A DNA stretch of 39,389 nucleotides, from contig NZ_JAGDWX010000007.1 in NCBI RefSeq assembly GCF_023256195.1, positions 1 to 39,389 of the forward strand, given 5' to 3'. A program made the translations under genes and the position numbers. This DNA is from Acidithiobacillus sp. GTDB taxonomy: Bacteria; Pseudomonadota; Gammaproteobacteria; Acidithiobacillales; Acidithiobacillaceae. The notes under the pieces were generated by a model. It saw only the letters and a program-made list of their open reading frames with translations. It searched no databases and had not been told where the DNA came from. This document shows positions 29,374 to 33,769 of this stretch, piece after piece (position 1 is the first letter of the stretch; every line of letters starts with the position of its first letter).

Positions 29374-30891
29374 ATGTCCTTACCCCTCAGCAGCCAGATC
29401 CTGATCCTCCTCCTCGGCGCCATGCTCGTCGCGGCTGTGCTGTGGAAGTGGCGGCAGAGTCGGGCTCTGAAGCGGTCTGGAAATAGCCTCCCGACCGCTC
29501 GCGAGACAAGGGTCCAGAAGCCGGTGGCGCGCACCACCCCGCCGGAGGCACCCAAACCTTCGGCGAGCAAGAAGGCGATGGGCGCCGCCCGGGTCGAAGA
29601 GGTCTCGCTCTTTGATGAAGTGGAGATCTACCTGTCCTATGGCCACCTGGAACAAGCGGCAACGGCTTTGCGCTGGTACGTGGACCACCATCCCGAGGAT
29701 GTCGCACAGAGACGGCGACTGCTGGACGTGTATCTGGAAATTCCCGATATCGACGCCTATGCCGAGGTTCTGGAAAACAGTGTCCAAGCCAAGGCCACCC
29801 CGCTGGACGAAGCGCGCGAGCGGATTTTTCTGGGCCTCGAGCGTGATCCGCAGAACCTCGGCCTGCGCGTCCTGGGCGAATCCGCACTGGGGCTGGATCC
29901 GGCTGACATCGATCGAGAGCTCAACCGACGCCGGCCCGAGGACCGTCGCCCACAGGCCGCAGCCCGCGCCGACGGCGCACCGCTCCTCGCCGATACGCAA
30001 CGCAACCTGGAGCAGATCATCGTCCATCCCGAGCCCCTGTCTCTGCAGGACATCCACCTGGATGGCTTTGCCCGAAAGGAGCCCAGCCACGGCGAGAATC
30101 GATCTGTGCCGCTCGACGCCACGCAGCTCGTACATGGTCCGGCAGAGGCGCTGCCCCTGGACGATGCCCAGGTGGAGATCATCGCCGCCATGGAATCGCC
30201 CCAGAGAGCCGTGGCGCTCCTGCTGGAGGCAGGCCAGGCGGCAAAGGCCGAGGCCCTGCTGTGGCGCTGGGTACTGTTGCGGCCGCGGCAGATTGGTCTC
30301 CAGGTGCAGCTGCTCGAGCTCATCTACCGACAGCGCCGGGCCGAGGATTACGGGCGGGCTCTGGTATTTCTCTATGTGACCCTGTGGGGGGCCGGTCAGG
30401 CCCTGCGGCAGCGTCTGCTCAAGCTGGGACGCAGTCTCGCGGATCTGCCCCTCTGGGACGCCCTTGCCGAGACGGACGCAGCCCCGGCGCGACTCGCCGC
30501 GCTCGCCGACGAGGACGGTATCTACCTGCCGATCACGGCCATCCCCCTGAGCAGTCCCGCCCTCGTCCAGGAAAGGCTGCGTCGCGATCATCAGATGCTC
30601 GGGGACGATACCCAGAAAGACGGCATCCTCGCGGAATTCAATGGACTACTGGAATATGGTCAGGTGGAAGAGGCCGTCGCTTTGCTCGAGGGCGCCATTC
30701 TGGCCAAACCCGAACGCGAGCTGTACTACCCCCTGTTACTGGAGATGTACGAGCGCATGCAGACAGCGGAACGATTTGCCCAATTCACCCAGAAAGTTCT
30801 TGCAAGTCCACATCCACCGGGGGAAACCGTCGTGCGTCAGATGTATCACCTTGCCGAGCGTCTGCAGCGCCGGCAACGCCACAACGTCTAG
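29374..30891 (+). CDS. FimV-like TPR membrane protein
   Basis: This 505-aa protein has one N-terminal membrane helix (about residues 7-24) followed by a basic, proline-rich linker and cytoplasmic TPR-like repeats. Residues 76-118 (SLFDEVEIYLSYGHLEQAATALRW) resemble the C-terminal TPR of FimV-type polar hub proteins; further TPR-like parts are at about 270-340 and 425-480. FimV proteins organise the cell pole and type IV pilus assembly. Here the gene leads the GTPase operon, 12 nt before the receiver-like gene. The FimV similarity is limited to repeats and layout, with no LysM domain seen. Role as a membrane scaffold for the downstream GTPase is inference. Confidence 0.7.
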   Translation: MSLPLSSQILILLLGAMLVAAVLWKWRQSRALKRSGNSLPTARETRVQKPVARTTPPEAPKPSASKKAMGAARVEEVSLFDEVEIYLSYGHLEQAATALRWYVDHHPEDVAQRRRLLDVYLEIPDIDAYAEVLENSVQAKATPLDEARERIFLGLERDPQNLGLRVLGESALGLDPADIDRELNRRRPEDRRPQAAARADGAPLLADTQRNLEQIIVHPEPLSLQDIHLDGFARKEPSHGENRSVPLDATQLVHGPAEALPLDDAQVEIIAAMESPQRAVALLLEAGQAAKAEALLWRWVLLRPRQIGLQVQLLELIYRQRRAEDYGRALVFLYVTLWGAGQALRQRLLKLGRSLADLPLWDALAETDAAPARLAALADEDGIYLPITAIPLSSPALVQERLRRDHQMLGDDTQKDGILAEFNGLLEYGQVEEAVALLEGAILAKPERELYYPLLLEMYERMQTAERFAQFTQKVLASPHPPGETVVRQMYHLAERLQRRQRHNV

Positions 30892-30903
30892 GAAGCTCGG
30901 GTC

Positions 30904-32124
30904 ATGAATCCACAGACAGCCAAAAAGAACCTGAAAGTACAGGCCATCGGCATGGACGAACGCAAGTCGGCGGTTTTCCGGATGGCGTTCAAGATGTACA
31001 GCAAACGCCAGTTCACCCTGCTGGAAAAGGGCGATACTGCCCCCGCGGACCTTGCCGTTGCCGATCTGGACAGTCCGGACGCATTGGCGCAGGTGCAGGC
31101 CTTCGCCCAAGCACATCCGGCGGTTCCCATACTGTGCACCAGCGTCGAGCCGTCAAGCACTCAGCCTTGGCCGGTACTGCGCAAGCCCATCCGTATGGAA
31201 ACGCTGTTTCCGGCACTGGAGTCGCTGCTGTCCCCAAGCGCGACGACGGAAACCCGCCAGGCACAGCCGGCTCCTGCACCCGATTCGGCGGCGGTGGTCC
31301 TGGGGGAGTCCACCCCGCCCGCCCCTGCCGAAACCGTCCCGCAACGGCCCACAGCAGCCGTCGGGCCCAGGGCTACGCAGACGCAGACGCAGACGCAGAC
31401 GCAGACACCGCAGGACATCGCGGCCAATGAAGTCGCACCAAAGCGCAGTCCGCCACCCGTGGTCACCCTACTGCCGGAGAGCGTACGCAGCTTTGATCCG
31501 GAAAGTGGTCTGCTGGGTCTCCTCGCCCGTGTACGCCGGGACAAGATCCCGGCCACCATCACCCGCGGTCGCGATCGGCTGATCTTTATCCTCGACCCGG
31601 AAGCGGATCGCGTCCGCACCGAACTGACGGATGCAGAAATTGAGACGCTCTGCCGCGAGGACGAGGCCCTGCAACTGCGCGCCTTCAAGGTTGAGGATCG
31701 GCTGGACCCAGACCGCGAGCGGGAGATCACCCTGCAGGCACTCACCTGGCAGGTGGCGGCGTGGTCGGCCCAGGGACGTTTGAGCCACAACATCCCCCTC
31801 AACGGCGTCGTGCAGTTGCGCCAGTGGCCCAACCTGACCCGCCTGCGTCCCCTGCCGGAGTCGCTGCGTCTGTCCGCCTTCTTTGCCCGCTCCCCTGCCT
31901 CCCCCATCCTCACCGTCAAGATCTTGCAGGTGCAGCCGGCCGATCTTTTCAACTTCCTGGCGGCGGCCGACAGCCTGGGTCTGCTGCGTTACGGCAAGGA
32001 AAGCACCGCCAACACCAGCGATAAAAGGGCAGACGACGACCATGCAAGCCGTGAAGAAAGCGCCAAGGCCACGCCTCGACGCGGCTTCCTCGGAAGGATT
32101 CTCGCCAGGATCGCGGGACTATGA
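30904..32124 (+). CDS. Receiver-like protein with DUF4388-like C-terminal region
   Basis: I do not recognise the whole protein (406 aa). Residues 10-110 look like a receiver domain: an acidic pair D18-E19, D54 in ADLDSP, S80 after PILCTS, and K94-P95, followed by the last helix. A proline- and glutamine-rich linker (about 112-190) contains (TQ)5. Residues 195-375 resemble DUF4388/PATAN-type regions (LLGLLARVRRDKIPATITRGRDRLIFILD) and end with a possible winged helix (LQVQPADLFNFLAAADSLGLL). The tail is charged then basic (RRGFLGRILARIAGL, possibly amphipathic). It lies between the TPR protein (12 nt) and the GTPase (42 nt). Domain calls are by eye. Confidence 0.7.
   Translation: MNPQTAKKNLKVQAIGMDERKSAVFRMAFKMYSKRQFTLLEKGDTAPADLAVADLDSPDALAQVQAFAQAHPAVPILCTSVEPSSTQPWPVLRKPIRMETLFPALESLLSPSATTETRQAQPAPAPDSAAVVLGESTPPAPAETVPQRPTAAVGPRATQTQTQTQTQTPQDIAANEVAPKRSPPPVVTLLPESVRSFDPESGLLGLLARVRRDKIPATITRGRDRLIFILDPEADRVRTELTDAEIETLCREDEALQLRAFKVEDRLDPDREREITLQALTWQVAAWSAQGRLSHNIPLNGVVQLRQWPNLTRLRPLPESLRLSAFFARSPASPILTVKILQVQPADLFNFLAAADSLGLLRYGKESTANTSDKRADDDHASREESAKATPRRGFLGRILARIAGL
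31375..31404 (+). repeat. Tandem hexanucleotide repeat (ACGCAG)5
   Basis: Five perfect ACGCAG units lie in frame in the linker of the receiver-like protein and encode Thr-Gln five times. Because the unit is six bases, slippage would change linker length without a frameshift. Confidence 0.9.
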
Positions 32125-32733: not shown

Positions 32734-33368
32734 GCATCGAACTGGCCGTGAGCGAGGAGCGCCTGTTTGCCGAGATTACCCCCGCCGGGGCTTTCTATGC
32801 CGTTTCCAGCCCCGAGCCCGGCGGCAACCGCAGCATTCTACTCAACATCCTCCGCGAGGGCAGCAGCGCTCCCTTCGCCGTGGCACTGGCCCAACGCTGG
32901 ACTCAGCTGGCCGACGAGGAAGATGCCCTGCGCAGCGTCTTTCGTCTACAGCGTCTCGGTCTGATTCGCGGCAACCCCGAGGCCCGACAGTCGCCGCGGG
33001 AACGCCTCGAGGATCTTCTCCCACCCCTGCTGGCGCAGCTATCGGACCACGGCAAGGCCCTGCTGGCGGACGAGAATGGTTTCTACCTTGCCGCCGCGGG
33101 CTTTCCCCACGAATCCGCGGAGGAACTGGCGGGACTCTCCGCCGACCTCATCAGTCTCCAGTCGCGCCACGGGCGCCTGCTGCGCAACAATCTGCGCGTC
33201 AACAGCGAAAGTTGGGCCCTGGTAGACCCCGCGGGTAATGCGGAACTGGGTTTCTGGCCGCTCTTCATCGGTCAACAGCGCTTCATGCTCATCATCGGTG
33301 GAACGCCCCGACTGCAGGATCAGTCCTTCGTGTATCTCGTTCAGGCCCTCGACACCCGCTATCGCTGA
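32730..33368 (+). CDS. Hypothetical protein with possible roadblock-like C-terminal domain
   Basis: This 212-aa protein has no recognised family by eye. Residues 40-80 (ILREGSSAPFAVALAQRWTQLADEEDALRSVFRLQRLGLIRGN) look like a winged-helix segment. Residues 95-212 (LSDHGKALLADENGFYLAAAGFPHESAEELAGLSADLISLQ ... WPLFIGQQRFMLIIGG) follow the strand-helix pattern of roadblock/LC7 domains, as in the next gene. It overlaps the GTPase gene by 4 nt and is 38 nt before the roadblock gene, so it is probably the GTPase's direct partner, comparable in position to the DUF742 protein of conservons. Confidence 0.7.
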   Translation: MSIELAVSEERLFAEITPAGAFYAVSSPEPGGNRSILLNILREGSSAPFAVALAQRWTQLADEEDALRSVFRLQRLGLIRGNPEARQSPRERLEDLLPPLLAQLSDHGKALLADENGFYLAAAGFPHESAEELAGLSADLISLQSRHGRLLRNNLRVNSESWALVDPAGNAELGFWPLFIGQQRFMLIIGGTPRLQDQSFVYLVQALDTRYR

Positions 33369-33406
33369 CCGCCTCATTCTAATTCGATTTTTCAAGGAGT
33401 TACCCC

Positions 33407-33769
33407 ATGCGTGAAGAAATGCTCAAATCCATCCTCAGCGACCTCAATGGCTCTTCTGCGGACATCGAGGCTTCAGCGGTGATCTCTACCGACGGCCTGA
33501 CCATCGCCTCCCTGCTCGCTGCCAACATGGACGAGGATCGCGTCGGCGCCATGGCCGCCGCCATGCTCTCTTTGGGCGACCGTACCGCCGCGGAACTGGC
33601 TCGGGGCGAGCTGGAACAGGTCATGATCAAGGGCGACAACGGCTACGTTCTGCTCATCCACGCCGGGCACGACGCCGTCCTCACCGTCATCGCCCGCAAG
33701 GAAGCCAAGCTCGGTCTCGTCTTTCTGGACGCCAAGCGCGCCGCCGCGGGGATCGCCGAGCTGCTCTGA
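33407..33769 (+). CDS. Roadblock/LC7 (MglB-like) protein
   Basis: This 120-aa protein is a single roadblock/LC7 domain: [31 protein letters not shown] is the first helix and strand pair, [39 protein letters not shown] the long helix and strands, and the C-terminal helix is [11 protein letters not shown]. Roadblock homodimers such as MglB act as GTPase-activating or scaffold proteins for MglA-type GTPases. A strong AAGGAG ribosome site precedes the ATG. It ends the five-gene operon; glyQ follows 67 nt later. Confidence 0.93.

Follow-up and report, generated by a model that had tools for sequence, protein, structure and literature searches.

A conserved five-gene operon of Acidithiobacillus comprises a Group 3 MglA-type GTPase system and an upstream TPR protein

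A window of 39,389 nucleotides (nt) from Acidithiobacillus sp. (assembly GCF_023256195.1, contig NZ_JAGDWX010000007.1, positions 1 to 39,389) contains an operon of five open reading frames (ORFs) spanning positions 29374-33769, all on the forward (+) strand. The first gene (29374..30891) encodes a tetratricopeptide repeat (TPR) protein of 505 amino acids (aa) with an N-terminal membrane helix and a FimV-like first TPR block, and the second (30904..32124) a pseudo-receiver protein of 406 aa with a separate C-terminal domain. These are followed by a Ras-like GTPase of 188 aa (32167..32733), a 212-aa protein of the MglB-1 type (32730..33368) and a 120-aa roadblock protein of the MglB-2 type (33407..33769). 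Successive gaps between the genes are 12, 42, -4 and 38 nt. The coordinates agree with an initial annotation of this DNA, which described five genes in one direction, two overlapping and the rest 12-42 nt apart. The TTGACA promoter that it placed ahead of them was not recovered: the hexamer is present at 29300, yet nothing there passes as a promoter-like site, and the sole promoter-like site found in the region lies at 33780.

The GTPase was found in 26 of the 29 Acidithiobacillaceae genomes, and an identical gene set in an identical order was present at each of the 16 family loci retrieved at length, of which one (L039) is cut by the end of its contig. The order TPR, 406-aa, GTPase, 212-aa and 120-aa is preserved at 69 of the 115 wider loci across the beta- and gamma-Proteobacteria, in keeping with the expectation of the initial annotation that the five genes be conserved together. 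Class-wide, 34 of the 276 genomes encode the 212-aa protein. One scan of named genomes returned at least 576 loci encoding a relative of the 120-aa protein, the best 80 of which include Acidithiobacillus, Aquitalea, Chromobacterium, Thiothrix, Leucothrix, Methylomonas, Methylobacter and Halothiobacillus; many of the named carriers are sulfur and methane oxidisers. The operon is real, complete and widely conserved. The same five genes also occur in the same order in Neisseria gonorrhoeae (NZ_CP119142.1, 1377072-1391419; L206), where the 120-aa-type gene is open and the other four (TPR, 406-, GTPase and 212-type) are each broken into several frames, a pattern attributable to decay or sequencing error.

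The GTPase matched the domain models ATP_bind_1 (3e-13) and small_GTP (4e-9) and carries all five motifs, namely GPVGVGKT (G1), TTVAMDYG (G2), GTPGQ (G3), SKTD (G4) and DGR (G5), the Asp and Arg of G5 being kept in 82 of 87 GTPases. Judged by the criteria in the main text of PMC4316618, these motifs agree with Groups 2-5 of MglA, including the DxR of Groups 2 and 3 in G5. In a GTPase tree without certified references for Group 1 or Group 4, the window GTPase fell within a beta/gamma-proteobacterial clade (support 0.89), with the GTPases of actinobacterial conservons outside it. Identity was 55% to the Neisseria gene and at most about 35% to full-length matches from Streptomyces.

The 120-aa protein is a plain roadblock protein (Robl_LC7, 2e-16) bearing the Asp-Gly pair of Group 2-5 MglBs, and is the most conserved of the five, at 94-100% identity within the family and about 57-87% at other loci. 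By sequence the 212-aa protein gave a weak roadblock match (0.005); its model, with a predicted local distance difference test (pLDDT) score of 94, has a roadblock fold over residues 90-212 (Z 10.9 to 3kye). The N-terminal domain (residues 1-88) is mostly helical and at best winged helix-turn-helix (wHTH)-like, with weak Lrp/IclR matches (E ~0.4). Both roadblock-type proteins of the initial annotation, and the MglA/MglB-like logic it saw in their position beside a Ras-like GTPase, are thereby borne out. Elsewhere in the window genome, a protein of ~121 aa (G000:C5:618-785; L205) gave a weak third roadblock-like match (E 0.007).

No Pfam match was obtained for the 406-aa protein of the window. 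Its profile matched response regulators (best E 0.005). Residues 8-114 (30925..31245) of the AlphaFold2 (AF2) model align to many receiver domains (VIA-align Z about 12), as anticipated for a receiver-type protein. Among 51 members Asp54 is kept in 49, Ser/Thr80 in 45 and Lys94 in all. A canonical response-regulator receiver combines these residues (phospho-Asp, Thr/Ser and Lys) with an acidic pair; here the pair is lost and replaced by Gly16-Met17, which makes ordinary Mg-dependent phosphorylation doubtful. A disordered linker, in which a short CAGACG repeat (QTQTQTQT) lies around 31378-31407, separates the receiver domain from a confidently folded C-terminal domain (residues 195-370; 31486..32013).

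Taken alone, the TPR protein of the window gave a weak TPR match (TPR_14, E 0.03); the repeats are clear family-wide, where 20 of 34 members matched TPR_19. A transmembrane helix is predicted at residues 5-23 (29386..29442; Kyte-Doolittle maximum 2.4 at residue 5), consistent with the membrane TPR protein first described. The C-terminal ~170 aa are the portion retained in all relatives, and short forms of ~240 aa correspond to the C-terminal part of the long form. The long, membrane-anchored, FimV-like form was found only in Acidithiobacillaceae and one beta-proteobacterial clade, and a membrane helix in 0 of 74 short relatives. With a profile built from the window's own family only, in order to avoid circularity, a TPR gene was detected at 74 of the 83 loci that could be tested, at most 400 nt upstream of gene 2, with 3 matches elsewhere in those loci; the count rises to 79 of 83 after one profile iteration. 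The TPR and 212-aa genes are still paired where the GTPase, 406-aa and 120-aa genes are absent (L109, L111 and L112).

Like the polar landmarks FimV and HubP, the window protein has a membrane helix ahead of a cytoplasmic TPR block, and it is weakly similar to the FimV of its own genome (30% over 59 aa, E 1e-5). Identity with FimV is however not supported, since the protein does not match the FimV C-terminal model (TIGR03504) and the genome holds a separate, bona fide FimV (G000:C35). The window genome also encodes a second Ras-like GTPase followed directly by a 308-aa membrane TPR protein (G000:C12:52435-54073; L031 7436-9074). This second GTPase has AIPGQ in G3 and an unusual G4; the pair lacks roadblock genes and is kept in relatives L048 and L050.

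Genes 2-5 are a Group 3 MglA system, a barely studied family named by Wuichet & Sogaard-Andersen (2014) for the beta- and gamma-Proteobacteria. In the main text of that paper (PMC4316618), Group 3 consists of a conserved receiver-like/wHTH-like protein, MglA and one or two MglBs. Of the features of this group, the window shows GTPGQ in G3, Thr rather than Arg in G2 and DxR in G5 of the GTPase, a receiver-like N-terminus in the 406-aa partner, and coupled MglBs in the 120-aa and 212-aa proteins. The system is therefore not undescribed, contrary to the initial annotation, which knew the combination under no name. The TPR gene receives no mention in the main texts of PMC4316618 and PMC11112851. 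Relative to those texts, a fifth, constant TPR component and the sensor genes of relatives (below) appear previously unreported, and the parts list of Group 3 was incomplete, the TPR protein being its near-constant fifth component; the membrane anchor, the sensors and the relocation and fusion of the GTPase are likewise added here. The Snodgrassella mgl operon has two coupled mglB genes and one orphan mglB, and mutation of the orphan Group 3 mglB alters pilus-dependent motility and colonisation, according to the main text of PMC11112851.

Two further systems invite comparison. By its parts the operon is analogous to the Group 1 system of Myxococcus xanthus (MglA/MglB/MglC/RomR with SgmX), which likewise comprises a GTPase, roadblock partners, a receiver-domain protein and a TPR protein, the last stimulating pili as an effector of MglA-GTP (PMC7519303). 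The window GTPase, by contrast, has TTVAMDYG and GTPGQ in place of the G2 Arg finger and the TVPGQ G3 of Group 1; SgmX is a soluble protein of 1060 aa, and in Myxococcus the genes for partners such as RomR do not adjoin mglA. The actinobacterial conservons (Cvn; Group 2 MglA) likewise pair a small GTPase of related G motifs with a roadblock protein in a compact, fixed operon. They differ in that the first gene here encodes a TPR protein, no kinase match was found in the five genes to correspond to the sensor histidine kinase of conservons, the GTPases form a separate clade and the gene order is another. Pfam detected no DUF742 (CvnC) here, and comparison of the C-terminal domain of the 406-aa protein with the DUF742 profile gave no significant match (E 0.06) in a test that is insensitive, because the score of two genuine roadblock families was no better (0.05).

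The GTPase gene is cleanly missing from the operon in nine loci at three separate places in the tree, a gap of 13-109 nt being left instead. In 7 of these 9 genomes a related GTPase is encoded elsewhere, mostly in frames of 327-376 aa; in the main GTPase-free clade, the marine Oceanospirillaceae, the gene has thus been moved rather than lost. The C-terminal extension of one relocated member matches nearly the whole Robl_LC7 model (E 0.006); comparison of the fused domain with roadblock alignments by hhalign was uninformative, a true roadblock pair scoring no better. Such a fusion is probably a natural link between the two proteins. Among the Oceanospirillaceae relatives L196-L201, the relocated GTPase with its roadblock-like extension is sometimes in tandem and adjacent to another roadblock-like gene.

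From these genes we infer a direction of signalling and a role for each arm. The GTPase would cycle between GTP and GDP forms, with a homodimer of the 120-aa roadblock protein as its activating or exchange partner (GTPase-activating protein or guanine nucleotide exchange factor), in the manner of MglB. The 212-aa wHTH-like/roadblock protein may serve as a second, probably non-catalytic, MglC-like roadblock connecting the GTPase/MglB pair with the TPR protein. The degenerate receiver of the 406-aa protein could act as the input arm, RomR-like in role and driven by partner binding instead of ordinary phosphorylation. By analogy with MglA-GTP and SgmX (PMC7519303), the TPR protein would be the scaffold or effector that positions the GTPase in its active state; in Acidithiobacillaceae and one beta-proteobacterial clade it would be anchored in the inner membrane. 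The likeliest output in the window organism would be the activity or placement of type IV pili, the best guess because the genome carries PilM and FlhA was not found in it. The role in polar pilus positioning or in attachment to sulfur that the initial annotation proposed would draw on these two observations and on the Snodgrassella mutation.

A complete Group 3 MglA-type switch that is read by the TPR protein, with pili as the likeliest output, is accordingly the interpretation that we favour, with moderate confidence. The fixed gene order, the TPR gene upstream, the GTPase motifs and clade, the modelled folds, the GTPase-roadblock fusion, the TPR and 212-aa pairs and the second TPR and GTPase pair all speak for the switch, as do the precedents of SgmX and of the orphan mglB in Snodgrassella. 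Several observations weigh against it. Co-occurrence of the operon with PilM (33 of 34 carriers vs 28 of 46 non-carriers, p 1e-4) faded to 33 of 34 vs 24 of 29 (p 0.09) once small genomes were removed, so the support from PilM is weak, this protein being near-universal in comparable genomes of the class. The operon is flanked by glyQ on one side and on the other by a gene of unknown function (28827-29285), and no pilus gene was recognised beside it among flanking genes that are only partly identified. In two near-complete genomes with a four-gene operon, G114 (L094) and G157 (L103), no related GTPase was found at E<=0.1, and the four genes can therefore persist without it. Wuichet & Sogaard-Andersen suggest a transcriptional output instead in the main text of PMC4316618.

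A transcriptional switch of that kind, in which the 406-aa protein acts as an atypical response regulator, binding DNA through a C-terminal winged helix under the control of the GTPase and roadblock proteins, appears unlikely, though it is the best placed of the alternatives. The receiver fold at the N-terminus of the 406-aa model, the wHTH-like N-terminal region of the 212-aa protein and the published Phyre2 prediction of a wHTH for the C-terminus of the 406-type family (main text of PMC4316618) are what it would lead one to expect. The C-terminal domain nevertheless gave no PDB profile match and, across 51 members, no Pfam DNA-binding match; the fold search with the 406-aa model returned a list filled by receiver matches. 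Domains of the wHTH type often bind proteins, and a partner tied to the membrane fits poorly with control of transcription.

Sensor genes in relatives raise an alternative that we regard as somewhat less likely still, namely a redox or oxygen module in which PAS, protoglobin and PhnD-like sensors set the state of the roadblock and GTPase proteins, with energy metabolism or taxis as output in place of polarity. At 103 core loci, an adjacent Aer-like PAS gene and a PhnD-like gene were each found 50 times, exactly this pair 47 times and a protoglobin gene 11 times. An orphan roadblock gene lies beside a protoglobin gene in 6 of 11 orphan loci checked (L133, L149, L154, L179, L185 and L128), an adjacency that suggests control of the roadblock protein by a haem sensor at those loci. 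Coupling of a haem globin to a roadblock is known from HGbRL of Methylacidiphilum (PMC4476040), although this is a single fused protein from another phylum and is not present in the window; literature searches yielded nothing relevant on roadblock proteins with FimV, protoglobin, Acidithiobacillus or Xanthomonas twitching. The abundance of sulfur and methane oxidisers among the carriers would also suit such a module. The window operon, however, has no PAS, PhnD-like or protoglobin gene, so the proposal concerns inputs in relatives, and these are compatible with a pilus output.

That the GTPase is secondary, an add-on lost or moved from a core scaffold of TPR, pseudo-receiver and roadblock proteins, is very improbable: its clean absence from nine operons, the two genomes in which none was detected and the TPR and 212-aa pairs that occur alone are set against its retention in place at most loci and its survival elsewhere in the genomes of the main GTPase-free clade, where it is mostly lengthened by a roadblock-like extension.

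A bolder form of the Group 3 switch is put forward tentatively, as possible and not as probable. The TPR protein would be an obligate scaffold binding the 212-aa protein and the GTPase, and swappable redox or oxygen sensors (PAS with a cytoplasmic PhnD-like protein, or protoglobin) would feed the roadblock arm, such that oxygen or redox state sets the activity or placement of pili in surface-living oxidisers.

Among bacterial systems, switches of the MglA type come closest to the control of cell polarity by Ras. To our knowledge, nearly all that has been learned of them comes from Myxococcus, and Group 3, a large branch with at least 576 loci in one scan, is almost without experimental work. 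Once its components are listed in full (a TPR scaffold, a pseudo-receiver, two roadblock proteins, optional haem or PAS sensors and natural GTPase-roadblock fusions), Group 3 becomes open to experiment, and the list points to oxygen or redox state as an input to a GTPase switch of organisms that oxidise sulfur, iron and methane.

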